IMG/VR virus record: IMGVR_UViG_3300047564_000567 | Coordinates: 1-27,797 of that record | Strand: one strand, 5' to 3' | Source of the DNA: a virus | Length of the DNA stretch: 27,797 bases | In this document: piece after piece, positions 15,012-26,936 of the stretch | How positions within the stretch are numbered: position 1 is the first letter of the stretch | Layout: every line of letters starts with the position of its first letter | Notes under the pieces: generated by a model | The model's input: only the letters and a program-made list of their open reading frames with translations | Told to the model about the DNA's origin: nothing | Database searches by the model: none | Made by a program: the position numbers and the translations under genes

Positions 15012-15151
15012 GCGGTTGGCTGATCCTTTTCACCGGGGCCATCTATGCCTACGTCGCCATCGAGCAGGGCATGAAGGGTAACACCGGCATGTTGATCGCG
15101 TATAGCGGCTATGCTTTCTCTAACATTGGGCTTTACATGCTTGCAAAATGA
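15008..15151 (+). CDS. Small two-span membrane protein, 47 aa
   Basis: MSGWLILFTGAIYAYVAIEQ forms one hydrophobic helix, a short charged turn (GMKGN) follows, and MLIAYSGYAFSNIGLYMLA forms a second. The size and topology match holin-like or other small phage inner-membrane proteins, but a lysis role is unproven, and its early position before the primase argues against a late holin. The start is the ATG at 15008, overlapping the preceding stop. Its last codon overlaps the primase start. Confidence 0.7.
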   Translation: MSGWLILFTGAIYAYVAIEQGMKGNTGMLIAYSGYAFSNIGLYMLAK

Positions 15152-16734
15152 CCAGTAAATTTCTTCGGCACGTTGCCTGTGATGCCTGTGGCAGCAGCGA
15201 CGGCAACAGCCTATACGATGACGGGCACACTCACTGCTTTGTGTGCAACACAACCAAACGCGGAGAATCTGACACTGTGGAAACAGTACGAGCACGAACA
15301 ACGATTCGTATGATTGAGCCAACAGGCACCTTTGCTTCCATTCAAGACCGGGGCATTAGTCGTGCCACCTGTGAAAAGTATGGAGTGACCCAGGCGGACA
15401 ACAGGCACTTCTATCCGTACACCAACACCGACGGCATTACAATTGCTTACAAGGTACGCGAGGTAGAACACAAAAAGTTTTCCATCAAGGGAGACTTCAC
15501 AGAGGCGCGGCTATTCGGTCAAAACCTGTTCCACCAGGGCGGTAAGTATGTCACGCTAGTGGAGGGCGAACTAGACGCCCTTGCAGCCTTCCAGATGACT
15601 GGGAGCCAGTGGCCTGTGGTGTCCATTCGCAATGGTGCTAACGCAGCCCTCAAGGATGCCAAGGCGCAGTACGAGTGGCTGAACACGTTTGACAACATCG
15701 TTATCTGCTTCGATGCCGATGAACCGGGCAAGAAGGCAGCTAAAGAGGTTGCAGAACTGTTCGGGCCGAAGGCTAAGATCGTCAAACACTTGTCGGGATA
15801 CAAAGACGCCTGTGACTACTTGGTTGCTGGTGCAGGAAAGGAATTCGTAAATGAATGGTGGCGTGCTGAAGCATTTGTGCCAGATGGTATTGTCGATGCT
15901 GCTTCCCTCTGGGAGTCTGTCTCAACACCCGAGAAACCCGCAGAAGCATTCTACCCCTGGAAAGGCTTAAACAGGCTATTGTATGGTATTCGACCGGCTG
16001 AACTGGTTACTATCACGGCAGGCTCTGGTCTGGGTAAATCTCAGTTTCTACGCGAGGTGCTCTATCAAATCCTTCGGTCAACTGGCTGGAACATTGGCGC
16101 GATGTTTCTGGAGGAATCGGTACGCAAAACCGCCCGTAGCATCATGTCCGTCCATGCTAACAAGATGCTGCACCTGCCTGACACAGAGGTTACAGAATCC
16201 GAGCTTAAAGAGGCGTTTGATTCGACTCTGGGCACAGGCCGCATTTATCTGTTTGACCATTTTGGCTCTCTTGAGATTGAAAACGTCATCAGCCGAATTC
16301 GATACATGGCTAAAGCTCTGGATTGTCGCGTGGTTTTCCTTGACCATATTTCTATCGTTGTATCCGGCCAGGACTCAGGCGACGAACGCAAGGCCATCGA
16401 CAACATGATGACCAAACTACGGACACTGGTACAGGAACTGGGTATCACCTTGTTTTGTGTGTCTCACCTGCGCCGTCCTGTGGGCAACGCAGGGCACGAA
16501 GATGGTCAGGCGGTGTCGTTGTCTCAGCTGCGTGGCTCTGGTGCCATTGCTCAGTTGTCGGATGCGGTCATTACGTTGGAACGCAACAGCATGGCAGAGG
16601 ACGAAGAAGAACGACACACTACCAAGGTGGCGGTGGCAAAGAACCGGTTTAATGGCTACACTGGCCCTGCCTGTCACTTGCGTTTTGACACTGTTTCTGG
16701 TAGAATGCTGGAAGTGGAGGAGCAGCCGTTGTGA
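15148..16734 (+). CDS. Primase-helicase (T7 gp4-like)
   Basis: This 528-aa fusion unwinds the fork and primes the lagging strand. Residues 11-33 hold a zinc-binding C-x2-C...C-x2-C, followed by a TOPRIM primase core with EGELDALAAF (about residues 138-147) and FDADEPGKKAA (about 188-198). After a linker, the RecA/DnaB-like helicase has Walker A ITAGSGLGKSQF (about 288-299), the acidic motif EES, Walker B CRVVFLDHIS and the SHLRRP and VAKNRFNGYTG motifs near the C-terminus. Both halves look intact. It is the centre of the replication module and probably acts with the split polymerase. The GTG of the next gene overlaps its stop. Confidence 0.95.
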   Translation: MTSKFLRHVACDACGSSDGNSLYDDGHTHCFVCNTTKRGESDTVETVRARTTIRMIEPTGTFASIQDRGISRATCEKYGVTQADNRHFYPYTNTDGITIAYKVREVEHKKFSIKGDFTEARLFGQNLFHQGGKYVTLVEGELDALAAFQMTGSQWPVVSIRNGANAALKDAKAQYEWLNTFDNIVICFDADEPGKKAAKEVAELFGPKAKIVKHLSGYKDACDYLVAGAGKEFVNEWWRAEAFVPDGIVDAASLWESVSTPEKPAEAFYPWKGLNRLLYGIRPAELVTITAGSGLGKSQFLREVLYQILRSTGWNIGAMFLEESVRKTARSIMSVHANKMLHLPDTEVTESELKEAFDSTLGTGRIYLFDHFGSLEIENVISRIRYMAKALDCRVVFLDHISIVVSGQDSGDERKAIDNMMTKLRTLVQELGITLFCVSHLRRPVGNAGHEDGQAVSLSQLRGSGAIAQLSDAVITLERNSMAEDEEERHTTKVAVAKNRFNGYTGPACHLRFDTVSGRMLEVEEQPL

Positions 16735-17276: not shown

Positions 17277-17497
17277 CTACTAAAAAAGTTAGCCTTCGCC
17301 AGATGGCTGAAGACCTGGGCTATGTGAAGAAGTTTGGCAAGTATTGGGAGTACGATTATTTCTCTATGTGGGATAACTACGGAGAAGGCCCGTGCGGTAC
17401 GGCTATGGGTTCTGACTACAACAACACTCCGATTACTGCCGAACAAATGAAAGAAGAATGGATTAAAGAATACGGAAACGAGGCGCAAACAACATGA
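17273..17497 (+). CDS. Hypothetical protein, 74 aa
   Basis: The product (MTTKKVSLRQMAEDLGYVKK at the start) contains WEYDYFSMWDNYGEGPCG and an acidic helical end. The first 20 residues resemble a short helical DNA-binding or docking segment but do not make a full helix-turn-helix. The ATG at 17273 follows AAAGGA and is preferred over an upstream ATG. Function unknown. Confidence 0.7.
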   Translation: MTTKKVSLRQMAEDLGYVKKFGKYWEYDYFSMWDNYGEGPCGTAMGSDYNNTPITAEQMKEEWIKEYGNEAQTT

Positions 17498-17685
17498 TGG
17501 ATGTCGAGTCGGTGGTGCAGCGGCTGTTTTCATTGGAGACTAAGTACTATGACCTCCAAAACAGATACCAAGCATTGATCCACCAATATGAGATTCTGAA
17601 AGAGAAATATGAAGCGGTTAGTGCTGGACATCGAGACGGACAGCAAGCACTCTACGATACACCTAGCGGTGACGCGGGACATTGA
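17494..17685 (+). CDS. Hypothetical coiled-coil protein, 63 aa
   Basis: The first 45 residues form a likely coiled coil (VVQRLFSLETKYYDLQNRYQ and ALIHQYEILKEKYEAV). It overlaps the exonuclease part of the polymerase by 77 bases in another frame, which is unusual here, so its C-terminus may be an accident of overlap. Either it is a real short gene or the polymerase starts later. The polymerase start at 17609 preserves the exonuclease motif DIETD and is secure. Confidence 0.55.
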   Translation: MMDVESVVQRLFSLETKYYDLQNRYQALIHQYEILKEKYEAVSAGHRDGQQALYDTPSGDAGH

Positions 17686-18457
17686 CACCGGGGAAACAAT
17701 AGTATGGAAAGAAGCAAGCCGCCTTCAGGAATATATAAAGGCCGCTACATTGATAATCGGCCACAATCTAATCGCCTTCGATGGACCGATCCTCAGGATT
17801 ATCTGGAATATTTCGATAAACTTGAAGAAAGTGTTCGATACGTTGATAGCGTCAAGGTTGCTAGAGCCGAGCAGAGAGCAAGGGCACAGCCTCGACGCGT
17901 GGGGAAAGACGCTGGGGAAGGAGAAGATTGACTATGCCAAAGTCTGGGAATGGATCGAAGGACGACGACAAGAGTATCCTGGAGAATGTTTTGACAAACC
18001 CCAAGAAAATCTGCTTGTTGATTATTGCATACGGGATTGTCTTGTTACTGACCGACTCTATGCTCACCTTTGTAAAGAACTGAGCAAGAAAGAGTTTAGC
18101 CAGCAGTCTATCGACCTAGAACACAAGGTAGCCTTCATCATCTCAAGGCAGGAACGTAATGGATTCAAACTCGACCTACCCTTCGCAACCATGCTACTTG
18201 CTGACATCCAAGGAAAACTGGATGAAATATATGAGTCAATGCAACAGCGATGGCCACCCTACGAAGTCCCCCGCGTCAGCGAGAAAACAGGCAAGCAACT
18301 TAAGCCGCTGCTGGTTACTTTCAACCCCGGCAGTCGCAAGCAGATCGGAGAAAAACTGATCGAACTTGGCTGGAAGCCTAAAGACTTCACTCCTACGGGG
18401 CAACCCATAGTAGATGAAAACGTGCTAGACCGAATCGTTAAGGAATGTGATGGCTAA
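17609..18457 (+). CDS. Split DNA polymerase A, N-terminal part (3'-5' exonuclease and start of thumb)
   Basis: This 282-aa protein is the first half of a T7-like family A polymerase. Exonuclease motif I is DIETD (D7, E9), motif II NLIAFD (N53, D58) and motif III Y139-x3-D143, so proofreading should work. Residues 170-245 match the T7 region around IISRQERNGF, and FNPGSRKQIGEKL and VVDDEVL-like IVDENVLDRI match the thumb, where the ORF stops after VKECDG. The T7 thioredoxin-binding insertion of roughly 75 residues is missing; only a short turn is present here. The stop lies inside the start of the PAPS-reductase-like gene. The rest of the enzyme is encoded at 19159-20079. Confidence 0.92.
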   Translation: MKRLVLDIETDSKHSTIHLAVTRDIDTGETIVWKEASRLQEYIKAATLIIGHNLIAFDGPILRIIWNISINLKKVFDTLIASRLLEPSREQGHSLDAWGKTLGKEKIDYAKVWEWIEGRRQEYPGECFDKPQENLLVDYCIRDCLVTDRLYAHLCKELSKKEFSQQSIDLEHKVAFIISRQERNGFKLDLPFATMLLADIQGKLDEIYESMQQRWPPYEVPRVSEKTGKQLKPLLVTFNPGSRKQIGEKLIELGWKPKDFTPTGQPIVDENVLDRIVKECDG

Positions 18458-19184
18458 GATTGTCGTGCCCGTCAGCGGCGGTAAAGATTCCCAGGCGTGT
18501 TTAAAACTCGCTGTTGAGGCTTACGGCACTGCCGATGTTATTGGCCTCTTCTGCGATACACAGTGGGAACATCCGTTAACATACAAGCATATCGACACAA
18601 TGGAACGTATTTATCGGGTTCCTATTGTGCGTGTTACTGGCGGTTCTGTTCCTGAGAAGGTTCGCAAGTATCAGCGGTTTCCTGTGCTTAGCCAGCGTTT
18701 CTGCACAGACGAACTAAAGATAAGGGAAACCAAGATTTTCCTAAAGAACTATGCAGAGCAGAATGGAGAGACACACGTTTGGTACGGGATGCGTCTGGAC
18801 GAAAGCCACCAACGGAGAGAAAGATACAAAGACAAGTTAGACCAAGAACTGTATCTTCCGCACGAAGTTCTACGAAAGTATCCGAAATACTTGGCTAAGT
18901 TGGGTGTTCGGTTTAAGATGCCCATTCTGTCGTGGTCTTCCGAGGAAGTCCTAGACATCTTGGGAGACGAAAAGAACCCGCTTTATGGAATGGGTTTTGA
19001 TAGGGTAGGCTGTTTTCCTTGCCTCGCTGCTGGAGACAAACAAAAAGTAAAGTTCTTTGAGTTTGACGACTTTGGCCGCGAACAGTACAAAAAGGTCATC
19101 CTGCTCCAACAGGAAACAGGCAAGAACATGTTTACAACCAAGAAATATCAGGAAGGTAATGGTTGCTCTATCTGCTCAATCTAA
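18450..19184 (+). CDS. PAPS-reductase-family (PP-loop) protein lying between the polymerase halves
   Basis: This 244-aa protein belongs to the PP-loop ATP pyrophosphatase/PAPS-reductase superfamily. The nucleotide-binding SGGKDS is at residues 9-14. Then come LFCDTQWEH (C35), RFCTDELKIRE (C85), GMRLDES (113-119), RVGCFPC (C188 and C191) and a final GCSIC (C239 and C242). The usual ECGLH tail of assimilatory PAPS reductases is absent. The Cys pairs could hold an iron-sulphur cluster as in DndC-like or other phage members. The ATG at 18450 with AAGGA six bases before is chosen over a GTG at 18447. It overlaps the exonuclease part by eight bases and the polymerase part by 26, so all three are co-translated. 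Substrate is unknown. Confidence 0.88.
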   Translation: MAKIVVPVSGGKDSQACLKLAVEAYGTADVIGLFCDTQWEHPLTYKHIDTMERIYRVPIVRVTGGSVPEKVRKYQRFPVLSQRFCTDELKIRETKIFLKNYAEQNGETHVWYGMRLDESHQRRERYKDKLDQELYLPHEVLRKYPKYLAKLGVRFKMPILSWSSEEVLDILGDEKNPLYGMGFDRVGCFPCLAAGDKQKVKFFEFDDFGREQYKKVILLQQETGKNMFTTKKYQEGNGCSICSI

Positions 19185-20079
19185 ACAAGAGTTAAAAGAA
19201 ACAGCTACGCTCATCCGAGACTACCTGCTGCTTCAGAAGCGCATCGCGCAGATCAAGTCGTGGATTGACGAAGTAGGCAACGACGGCAGGGTACACGGCA
19301 AGGTCATCACCAACGGGGCTGTTACGGGCCGCATGACGCACAGTAGCCCTAACATGGCTCAGGTGCCTAATGCTGGTTCTGTCTATGGCCCAGAATGCCG
19401 CCAATGTTGGACTGTTGAAGACGGGAACATGCTGGTGGGCTGCGATGCCTCTGGCCTGGAACTGCGTATGCTGGCTCATTACATGCAAGACAAGGAATAC
19501 ACCCATGCGGTCGTTTCAGGATCGTCGAAAGACGGAACGGACATCCACACGAAGAACCAGAAAGCGGCTGGCCTACAAACGCGGGATCAGGCAAAGACAT
19601 TCATCTACGCCTTCCTCTACGGGGCAGGCCCAGCGAAGATCGGCAGCATTGTTGGTGGTACTGCAAAGGACGGACAAAAACTTATTGATTCCTTCCTTGA
19701 TGCGACTCCCGCGCTCAAGGCTCTACGAAATAAGGTATCCAAGTATGCAGGCAAGGGTTATGTACCGGGGCTTGATGGTCGCAAGATATGGGTACGCTCC
19801 GAGCATTCCGCACTTAATAGCCTACTACAAGGCGCAGGCGCAATTGTAATGAAGCAGGCTCTGGTGCTGTTTGACGAGAAGATCAGGCGCAACCGGTGGC
19901 CTGTAAAGCTCGTGGTCAATGTTCATGATGAATTACAATGGGAGACTTCTCCTGAGTTTGTTGAACTTACAGGGAAAGCCTGCGTAGAGTCCATTGAAGA
20001 AGCAGGGAAGGTTTTTAATCTTCGCTGCCCCGTCACAGGAGAGTATAAATATGGCAAAACATGGCGAGACACCCACTGA
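19159..20079 (+). CDS. Split DNA polymerase A, C-terminal part (palm and fingers)
   Basis: This 306-aa protein is the second half of the T7-like polymerase. It begins within the thumb (LIRDYLLLQKRIAQI, T7-like LIKEYLMIQKR) and carries motif A CDASGLELR (D96, E101), motif B R142-x3-K146-x7-YG155 and motif C VHDEL (H256, D257, E258). All catalytic residues are present. I chose ATG at 19159 because AGGAAGG precedes it and the T7 similarity begins near residue 18; earlier in-frame codons encode only PAPS-reductase shadow. The two halves together (about 588 residues) equal a full polymerase without the T7 thioredoxin-binding insertion. The C-terminus overlaps the next gene by 29 bases. Confidence 0.92.
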   Translation: MVALSAQSKQELKETATLIRDYLLLQKRIAQIKSWIDEVGNDGRVHGKVITNGAVTGRMTHSSPNMAQVPNAGSVYGPECRQCWTVEDGNMLVGCDASGLELRMLAHYMQDKEYTHAVVSGSSKDGTDIHTKNQKAAGLQTRDQAKTFIYAFLYGAGPAKIGSIVGGTAKDGQKLIDSFLDATPALKALRNKVSKYAGKGYVPGLDGRKIWVRSEHSALNSLLQGAGAIVMKQALVLFDEKIRRNRWPVKLVVNVHDELQWETSPEFVELTGKACVESIEEAGKVFNLRCPVTGEYKYGKTWRDTH

Positions 20080-20239: not shown

Positions 20240-20324
20240 GCATCGGTGGTGGAATAGGTAGACAAGGCGGACTTAAAATTCGTTGCCGATAGGCGTGAGG
20301 GTTCGAGTCCCTCCCGATGCACCA
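20240..20324 (+). tRNA. tRNA-Leu (anticodon TAA)
   Basis: The 85-base sequence folds into a full cloverleaf: acceptor GCATCGG/CCGATGC, a five-pair anticodon stem with two G-T wobbles and loop CTTAAAA (anticodon TAA, reads UUA/UUG), a long variable arm (GCC..GGC type) as required of type II tRNA-Leu, T-arm GAGGG-TTCGAGT-CCCTC and encoded ACCA. It would help translate leucine codons that are common in AT-richer phage genes. Confidence 0.93.
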
Positions 20325-20326
20325 TA

Positions 20327-20400
20327 GCCCCTGTAGCATGAAGGTCGTGCAGTTGCCTTGTAAGCATCAGGCCCTGGTTCGATTCCGGGCAGGGGCACCA
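20327..20400 (+). tRNA. tRNA-Thr (anticodon TGT)
   Basis: Acceptor GCCCCTG/CAGGGGC, D-stem GCAT/GTGC, anticodon loop CTTGTAA (anticodon TGT), T-arm CCTGG-TTCGATT-CCGGG and encoded CCA are all present. The anticodon stem GTTGC/GCATC has one T-T mismatch and the D-loop is short, so folding may be a little weak. It follows tRNA-Leu by two bases and is probably processed from the same transcript. Confidence 0.85.
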
Positions 20401-22898: not shown

Positions 22899-23228
22899 AT
22901 GACAGACGACAACGAATACATGAGTCACTACACTTTTGCCTATCGAAACTTCGATGAGAACAAAAGCGTAGAATTCAACCAGTCCTTCGACGACTGCGTT
23001 ACCTGGCCTACTGTGCTGAATGCCTTTACTGACTTCCTGAGCAGCGTGTACGGCTACGATGTGTCAAGCAAGGTGCGCATCGAGGCCAGCAAGTATGGCA
23101 TCGACCAAGGCTGGTCTGGTGGCTACTTTGACAAAGACGACGCTGATGCTCAGTTTGTAAAGAAAGCAGACCGCGACGAATTCTACAACATGTTTGATGA
23201 CGGCCAAGATGAAGATTTTGCTCCTTGA
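22899..23228 (+). CDS. Hypothetical acidic protein, 109 aa
   Basis: The product begins MTDDNEYMSHYTFAYRNFDE and contains a helical middle (WPTVLNAFTDFLSSVYGYDV) and a long acidic end (DEFYNMFDDGQDEDFAP). It begins one base after the ThyX stop with a GGAG site six bases before the ATG. There is no known domain. It could bind a protein in the replication machinery through its acidic tail. The start of the exonuclease gene lies inside its end. Confidence 0.75.
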   Translation: MTDDNEYMSHYTFAYRNFDENKSVEFNQSFDDCVTWPTVLNAFTDFLSSVYGYDVSSKVRIEASKYGIDQGWSGGYFDKDDADAQFVKKADRDEFYNMFDDGQDEDFAP

Positions 23229-23946
23229 CATCGAGTCTGCCCCTAACACAGCCTATGTGTGGGGGCTTTTTAAACAGAACATCAGCATCTCTCAAATCGT
23301 TAACTCGTCTGAGATGCTGTGCTGGGCTGCTAAGTGGCTCGGTCAGGACACAGTAGAGTTTGCCTCTATCATGGGCGGTAAGCGTAAGATGCTCCAACGC
23401 ATCCATACCCTGCTCAATGAGGCCGACGCTGTGGTGCACTACAATGGTAGCCGGTTTGACATCCCCACGCTCAACAAAGAATTCCTGTTGGCTGGTATGG
23501 CTCCTCCGGCTCCGTATGCCCAAATCGACCTGCTTCAGACCGCCCGTAGGCAGTTCCGATTCCCGTCTAACAAACTGGATTATGTCGGTCAAGCCCTCGG
23601 CGTAGGCCGCAAAGAAGGCCACGAAGGGTTTGAATTGTGGATCAAGTGCATGAACCGCGACAAGGATGCTTGGCAACGCATGGAAGCCTACAACAAGCAA
23701 GACGTTGTACTGCTTGAACAGGTGTACTTCAAGTTCCTGCCGTGGATCAAGAACCATCCCAACCGAGGCGTACACTCTGAGACTCCGCTTGTGTGTCCTA
23801 CCTGCGGGTCTAACGAGGTGCGTAAGCGTGGCTTTAACGTCACCAAGGCCGGTAAGTATCAGCGGTATCAGTGCAACGGCTGTGGCTCTTGGTCTAGCCA
23901 GCGTACCGGTGCTAAGTTGGATGAACTTGTGCTGAAGGCGGTGTGA
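23209..23946 (+). CDS. DnaQ/RNase H-like 3'-5' exonuclease with C-terminal zinc ribbon
   Basis: The N-terminal MKILLLDIES holds exonuclease motif I (D7, E9). ADAVVHYNGSRFDIPTLNKEF holds motif II and YNKQDVVLLEQVY motif III. Residues about 190-230 form a four-Cys ribbon (CPTCGSNEV and CNGCGSWSS) with a KRGFNVTKAGKYQRYQ segment like those of transposase- and IS1-type zinc ribbons. It may work on nucleic acids as a free nuclease in repair, recombination or nucleotide recycling. The ATG at 23209 gives the classic exonuclease start; two earlier codons, TTG and ATG, are less good. It overlaps the previous gene by 20 bases. Confidence 0.87.
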   Translation: MKILLLDIESAPNTAYVWGLFKQNISISQIVNSSEMLCWAAKWLGQDTVEFASIMGGKRKMLQRIHTLLNEADAVVHYNGSRFDIPTLNKEFLLAGMAPPAPYAQIDLLQTARRQFRFPSNKLDYVGQALGVGRKEGHEGFELWIKCMNRDKDAWQRMEAYNKQDVVLLEQVYFKFLPWIKNHPNRGVHSETPLVCPTCGSNEVRKRGFNVTKAGKYQRYQCNGCGSWSSQRTGAKLDELVLKAV

Positions 23947-26531: not shown

Positions 26532-26936
26532 ATGGAAATGTGGAAAAAGATAGAAGGGTTTGAAACCTATCAAGTTTCTAGTATTGGTCAAGTGAAATCG
26601 TTACCTAATGATAAAACTAAAAAAGAAAAGATACTAAAACCTTTTTATTCACAAGGTTATCCTAAAGTACACCTTTGGAAAGAAGGAGTAAGAAAAAAGA
26701 GATCAGTGCATTCTTTAGTGGCTGATGCTTTCTTAGAAAAACCAAAACAAGAAGGTCTTGTTATAAACCATAAAAATGGAAATAAAGCAGACGCTTCTTA
26801 CCAAAATTTAGAGTGGGTAACTATTAAAGAAAACAACTTTCATAGGTATCATAAAACAACAGACATAAAACAAATCTACATTGAAAAAATAAAAAGGATA
26901 ATGCTAAAACAAGGTATAACAAAAGATGACCTATAA
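26532..26936 (+). CDS. HNH homing endonuclease with NUMOD4 domain
   Basis: This 134-aa protein is a free-standing homing endonuclease that cuts and copies itself into DNA. Residues 4-24 (WKKIEGFETYQVSSIGQVKS) are a NUMOD4 DNA-binding motif. The HNH centre is H60, N79-H80 and N92, in VINHKNGNK and QNLEWVT. The C-terminus is a short Lys-rich helix, perhaps a truncated HTH. Unlike its neighbours the gene is very rich in A and T and in AAA codons, a mark of recent transfer. It lies outside any gene, between two similar terminators, and has no clear ribosome site. Confidence 0.9.
   Translation: MEMWKKIEGFETYQVSSIGQVKSLPNDKTKKEKILKPFYSQGYPKVHLWKEGVRKKRSVHSLVADAFLEKPKQEGLVINHKNGNKADASYQNLEWVTIKENNFHRYHKTTDIKQIYIEKIKRIMLKQGITKDDL

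Follow-up and report, generated by a model that had tools for sequence, protein, structure and literature searches.

The window analyzed here, a 27,797-bp record from an uncultured tailed phage, has head, portal and terminase genes on its minus strand; its T7-type replication region is encoded on the plus strand. In this region we find three overlapping ORFs, each in a different frame: two (polN and polC) encode the parts of a single DNA polymerase, and between them lies the gene for a PP-loop protein (Table 1). No further polymerase gene was found among the scanned ORFs of the window. A match to phrog_403 ('DNA polymerase exonuclease subunit', 23194-23943) represents a second exonuclease-like gene besides the exonuclease domain of polN, and a free-standing HNH endonuclease gene is located at 26532-26936. 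Shortly 3' of the polymerase, at 20240-20400, are tRNA genes for Leu(TAA) and Thr(TGT), in DNA that is kept in two related IMG/VR contigs, L001 and L002.

Table 1. Features of the replication region, with positions in the window.
Feature	Position	Strand	Remarks
T7-type primase-helicase (Pfam/PHROG matches)	15148..16734	+	same strand as polN, upstream
Small conserved ORF	17494..17685	+	overlaps polN start; counterpart precedes the polymerase in L002 and L099
polN: 3'-5' exonuclease and first thumb half of a T7-type family A DNA polymerase	17609..18457	+	282 aa
Left flank of insert, 22 bp	18428..18449	+	not homologous to L001/L002; encodes the end of polN
PP-loop / PAPS-reductase-fold gene, complete	18450..19184	+	244 aa; SGGKDS, VGCFPC, GCSIC
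AGGAAGG-TA-ATG: Shine-Dalgarno-like sequence and start of polC	19150..19161	+	within 3' end of PP-loop gene, +1 frame
polC: second thumb half, palm and fingers	19159..20079	+	306 aa; motifs A, B, C
Right flank of insert, 33 bp	19185..19217	+	part of the codons for SKQELKETATLIRD

The two polymerase ORFs match contiguous halves of one profile, phrog_17 (positions 670-924 by polN, 928-1233 by polC), and Pfam finds PF01612 in the former and PF00476 in the latter. As the initial annotation had described, the motifs are divided between the two, each set in the appropriate half: the exonuclease motifs DIET, HNLIAFDGP and YCIRD in polN, the polymerase motifs A (DASGLELR), B (RDQAKTFIYAFLYGAG) and C (VHDE) in polC. 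The combination of an exonuclease domain with a PF00476 domain bearing motifs A, B and C is that of a T7-type family A polymerase; what is missing is the single uninterrupted chain, as the halves are read from different frames and separated by a third gene. Neither half contains a stop or frameshift elsewhere. The ORFs overlap by 8 nt (polN stop and PP-loop start) and by 26 nt (PP-loop end and polC start), and the start of the PP-loop gene is preceded by a Shine-Dalgarno-like AAGGA in the left flank (18440-18444). The bare ATG in the +1 frame at the 3' end of the PP-loop gene is in itself not a special feature, being present in 18 of 55 homologs. Scans of the insert for promoters and terminators gave no excess over shuffled sequences.

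In both L001 and L002 the polymerase is a single ORF. Since these contigs are close relatives of the window (∼94% nucleotide identity for L001 over 6.5 kb downstream of the insert, ∼91% for L002 over 3.7 kb), the split is not a chance constellation. The alignment to L001 breaks at 18427 and restarts at 19218, the 35 bp of L001 at this point being replaced by 790 bp. At the protein level, the ...VDENVL of polN meets the ...VDESVL of the intact relatives, and the start of polC, SKQELKETATLIRDYLLLQKR, aligns with their SKVDMPEAQMIAEYLLLQKR; the insert therefore sits between ...VDE(N/S)VL and SK..., without the loss of a single polymerase residue. The halves had been correctly perceived to meet at one homologous point, but the polymerase does not resume only at LIRDYLLLQKR, as had been assumed, since polC begins earlier, at the ATG at 19159. 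Intact relatives on one side and an insert coding for a complete, separate protein on the other are what characterizes phage genes interrupted by a free-standing gene.

The insert includes short flanks on both sides of the PP-loop gene. The last nine codons of polN (DRIVKECDG) fall into the non-homologous left flank, and the residues SKQELKETATLIRD at the right flank are homologous to SKVDMPEAQMIAE of the intact relatives, their DNA being a different allele. The 22 and 33 bp match no allele found elsewhere, which points either to a donor having a different polymerase allele or to changes that followed the split. Searches for such a donor allele led nowhere: in IMG/VR, TLIRDYLLLQKR was restricted to a near-identical contig, and the pattern VDENVLDRI retrieved only unrelated loci and alleles that were similar but not the same. 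At its 3' end (19906-20079), polC also differs in allele from L001 and L002, with 18 non-synonymous window-specific changes within 44 codons from 19945 onward, while the neighboring DNA to either side shows ∼90-95% identity. This segment is, judged by its sequence, a recombination patch in which the 3' end of polC was exchanged. Window-specific codon changes elsewhere were 10 synonymous to 1 non-synonymous in polN, a bias that may partly pre-date an insertion perhaps too young to have left a signal of selection, and 14 to 7 in the polC core.

We extended the comparison to 217 fetched loci matching the polymerase, some contigs being fetched more than once. The split point is crossed unbroken and in one frame by 195 of these, so that one-piece polymerases, which the initial annotation had proposed to look for in relatives, occur well beyond L001 and L002; 17 of the 217 do not cover the point. 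The only interrupted loci are the window itself (L081) and a second contig that was retrieved four times (IMGVR 3300047510_000178; L082 and L176). This contig has the same junctions and overlaps with the window over ∼12.3 kb, in which the two sequences are identical except for 12 differences confined to the outermost ∼90 bases. Due to the identical interior of the overlap, the two may share reads; the contig supports the junctions, though perhaps without independence at the read level. Two viral scans revealed no further split of this kind among their PP-loop loci; the scan of genome contigs yielded 10 loci.

By alignment, the split point corresponds to residue ∼369 of T7 gp5, which we take to be part of the thumb. 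The thumb is the part that holds on to DNA, and the thioredoxin-binding loop of T7 is located there. An AlphaFold model of an intact relative (pLDDT 91.6) had T7 polymerase as its best PDB match (Z 40) and places the junction (residues 273/274) where a short helix (270-275) ends, next to a 3-residue loop that leads to the long thumb helix (279-302). This loop varies in length, being longer in the intact polymerases of L046 and T7. In L046, the uninterrupted polymerase (4-1470) has a loop of ∼27 residues exactly at the split point of the window. The split would be tolerated at this site because it adjoins the length-variable loop joining the two helices, and the conserved elements of the polymerase, both catalytic motifs and secondary structure elements, are all kept.

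The inserted gene appears complete and lies in a third frame (18450-19184), as noted from the outset. Its product matches PF01507 (E 2.7e-21), contains the canonical ATP-type PP-loop SGGKDS and the cysteine pairs VGCFPC and GCSIC, and keeps all residues that are invariant across an alignment with 45 homologs, the terminal cysteines included. The predicted fold (pLDDT 93) superimposes on APS/PAPS reductases with Z-scores of 13.6-15.4 and an rmsd of 2.6-3.3 over 163-177 residues. With its SGGxDS motif and PAPS-reductase-type fold, the protein thus belongs to the PP-loop / PAPS_reduct superfamily, and in this respect its assignment to the PAPS reductase family was apt; however, it lacks the C-terminal catalytic motif ECG(L/I)H of CysH, ending instead in GCSICSI, and scores far below the NCBIfam cut-offs for CysH and DndC. 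Matches to DndC/SspD were partial and low (TIGR03183, 41 bits where 290 are required), and no partner genes (DndD/DndE, SspB/C) were detected among the PHROG-scanned ORFs of the incomplete genome; padloc was applied to the PP-loop proteins alone. The inserted gene is probably not a PAPS reductase, and we refer to its product simply as a PP-loop enzyme. Nor is it a homing endonuclease, in agreement with the earlier reading, as it matches PP-loop-type families and no endonuclease family (HNH, GIY-YIG, LAGLIDADG). The best PDB profile match of the family alignment was chain C of 21fy, 'PptA' (E 2.7e-7); a literature search on PptA returned nothing relevant.

What the initial annotation had overlooked is that polymerases in this phage group often have the PP-loop gene as a neighbor. 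Homologs, mostly 50-68% identical, are located in the replication modules of many phages, where primase-helicases, DnaB-like helicases and polymerases are their commonest recognized neighbors. In eight loci (L097, L099, L100, L101, L102, L105, L107, L108) it precedes a polymerase gene at a distance of 19-749 bp, and that polymerase gene is unbroken as far as it is contained in the contig, indicating that in related phages the slot before the polymerase is where the PP-loop gene is at home. From these positions we infer that a resident neighbor of the polymerase relocated into the polymerase gene. In L002, two ORFs lie between primase-helicase and polymerase, named by eye as DNA methyltransferase-like (L002:1296-1997) and HNH-type (L002:2109-2543), the latter overlapping the polymerase start. 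Both are absent from that place in the window, and their occurrence in L002 implies that the slot turns over.

We consider it likely that the locus encodes a two-chain polymerase, expressed from a unit of three overlapping genes, and that the PP-loop gene, an upstream neighbor in relatives, now resides inside. Since the polymerase gene has been cut into two overlapping genes by the PP-loop gene, two separate chains are the probable products. According to this model, a PP-loop gene that is separate and just upstream in related phages came to lie inside the polymerase gene; one mRNA would carry all three ORFs, to be translated in turn by coupled re-initiation, which is the simplest reading of the overlaps and the Shine-Dalgarno-like sequences. 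The chain with the exonuclease and one half of the thumb and the chain with the other half, palm and fingers would fold separately and join via thumb and palm to form a functional polymerase, and the PP-loop protein would be produced as an independent enzyme. Assembly of the two chains is suggested by the retained motifs, the 10:1 synonymous bias in polN and the precedents discussed below. Further, its nested location could guard the PP-loop gene against being lost, as any deletion that is not precise would harm the polymerase.

The main alternative is that the insertion broke the polymerase and that phages of this lineage are defective or replicate with another enzyme, which we regard as unlikely. 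It would fit an insertion that is unique among the examined loci and limited to one strain, and another polymerase could be encoded elsewhere, since the genome is an incomplete 27.8 kb fragment; yet all catalytic motifs and secondary structure elements are kept, polC possesses its own start and Shine-Dalgarno-like sequence, both halves are free of other stops and frameshifts, with a purifying pattern in polN, and the scanned ORFs of the window include no other polymerase gene. It is very unlikely that the PP-loop gene of another phage was joined into an intact polymerase gene by an error of assembly or sequencing: the split is present in two separately assembled contigs, the starts overlap neatly, and the flanks encode polymerase-like residues unlike those of any other contig compared, even if both split-bearing contigs, identical inside, could stem from the same reads.

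Two further readings would restore a single chain. Removal of the insert at the RNA level, by an intron or by bypass, has parallels in phage polymerase genes with introns (e.g. ProddE), but just 22 and 33 bp of the insert lie outside the PP-loop gene, and we judge it extremely improbable. The earlier verdict that these 55 bp leave too little room for an intron or intein is confirmed: Rfam searches of the region and of the whole window matched no group I or II intron, returning only two tRNAs above threshold, and an intein is discounted by the frames of the insert, which differ from those of both halves, and by the lack of a match to any intein family. A polN-PP-loop-polC fusion through two +1 frameshifts, with the PP-loop protein as an inserted domain, is in our judgment likewise extremely improbable; both junctions are +1 steps between overlapping open frames, but we recognized no slippery site by eye, and good ribosome-binding sequences precede both internal starts. 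Compatible with two separate chains, and in our estimation very improbable, is the idea that the PP-loop protein is part of the replisome, bound between or beside both polymerase chains and coupling an ATP-dependent sulfur or nucleotide reaction to DNA synthesis, with nesting to fix the stoichiometry; the frequent place of the family beside primase-helicase and polymerase genes agrees with such a role without proving it.

The two-chain polymerase proposed here would be a family A replicative polymerase divided within the thumb by a non-mobile, metabolic-type gene, suggesting that gene splits may arise without a homing endonuclease or an intron. As the insert is short and close relatives are uninterrupted, its history and the assembly of the chains are directly testable. 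Our search of the open-access literature turned up neither a published thumb split nor an insert of the PP-loop type.

Splits of essential phage genes by free-standing genes have been described, and the analogy drawn by the initial annotation is supported. In Aeromonas phage 25 (43A/43B) and Aeh1 (nrdA), the halves retain their function: gp43A and gp43B co-purify with polymerase activity, and the split NrdA is fully active (PMC2988022). These cases involve a family B polymerase or a ribonucleotide reductase, and the insert is a homing endonuclease; free-standing endonuclease genes of T4 have been described with overlaps of 11-24 bp (PMC2988022). A published split of a family A polymerase is that of the OM43 phages MEP401 and MEP402 (PMC10580990; OP830906, OP830907), which likewise have two polymerase ORFs with a free-standing ORF between them and no intron shown. 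Their split, however, is located just before motif A (T7 ∼467), ∼100 residues downstream of ours, and the inserted ORF encodes a 77-aa protein of unassigned family rather than a PP-loop protein. It was published as a possible intron; the three ORFs (L088, L094) are nearly back to back. Considering this different position and the 195 loci that are unbroken at the split point of the window, the proposal that the junction is a general hot spot is not supported. The same applies to the supposed coincidence with the DnaJ-like zinc region of the HMO-2011 polymerase, which, in an uncertain alignment, falls N-terminal of our junction (roughly T7 330-358). Polymerases of this type are likewise phage family A enzymes with additional sequence separating the exonuclease from the palm, but the partial DnaJ domain is in-frame within one chain (PMC9038755). 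The Desulfovibrio phage ProddE also has an interrupted T7-type polymerase, in its case by an annotated intron with a splice site at another position, and PaP3-like phages (HE983844), considered as a candidate for the same split, encode the exonuclease in a gene of its own at a distance of several genes. The phage 'PAPS reductase' genes of phrog_424 (e.g. Vibrio phage 1.047.O, L097-L108) are of the same family as our insert, with 53-68% identity, and often found in replication modules, but they stand alone, beside the polymerase gene rather than inside it. Split phage polymerases are thus already known, and the thumb split around a PP-loop gene adds a variant to them.
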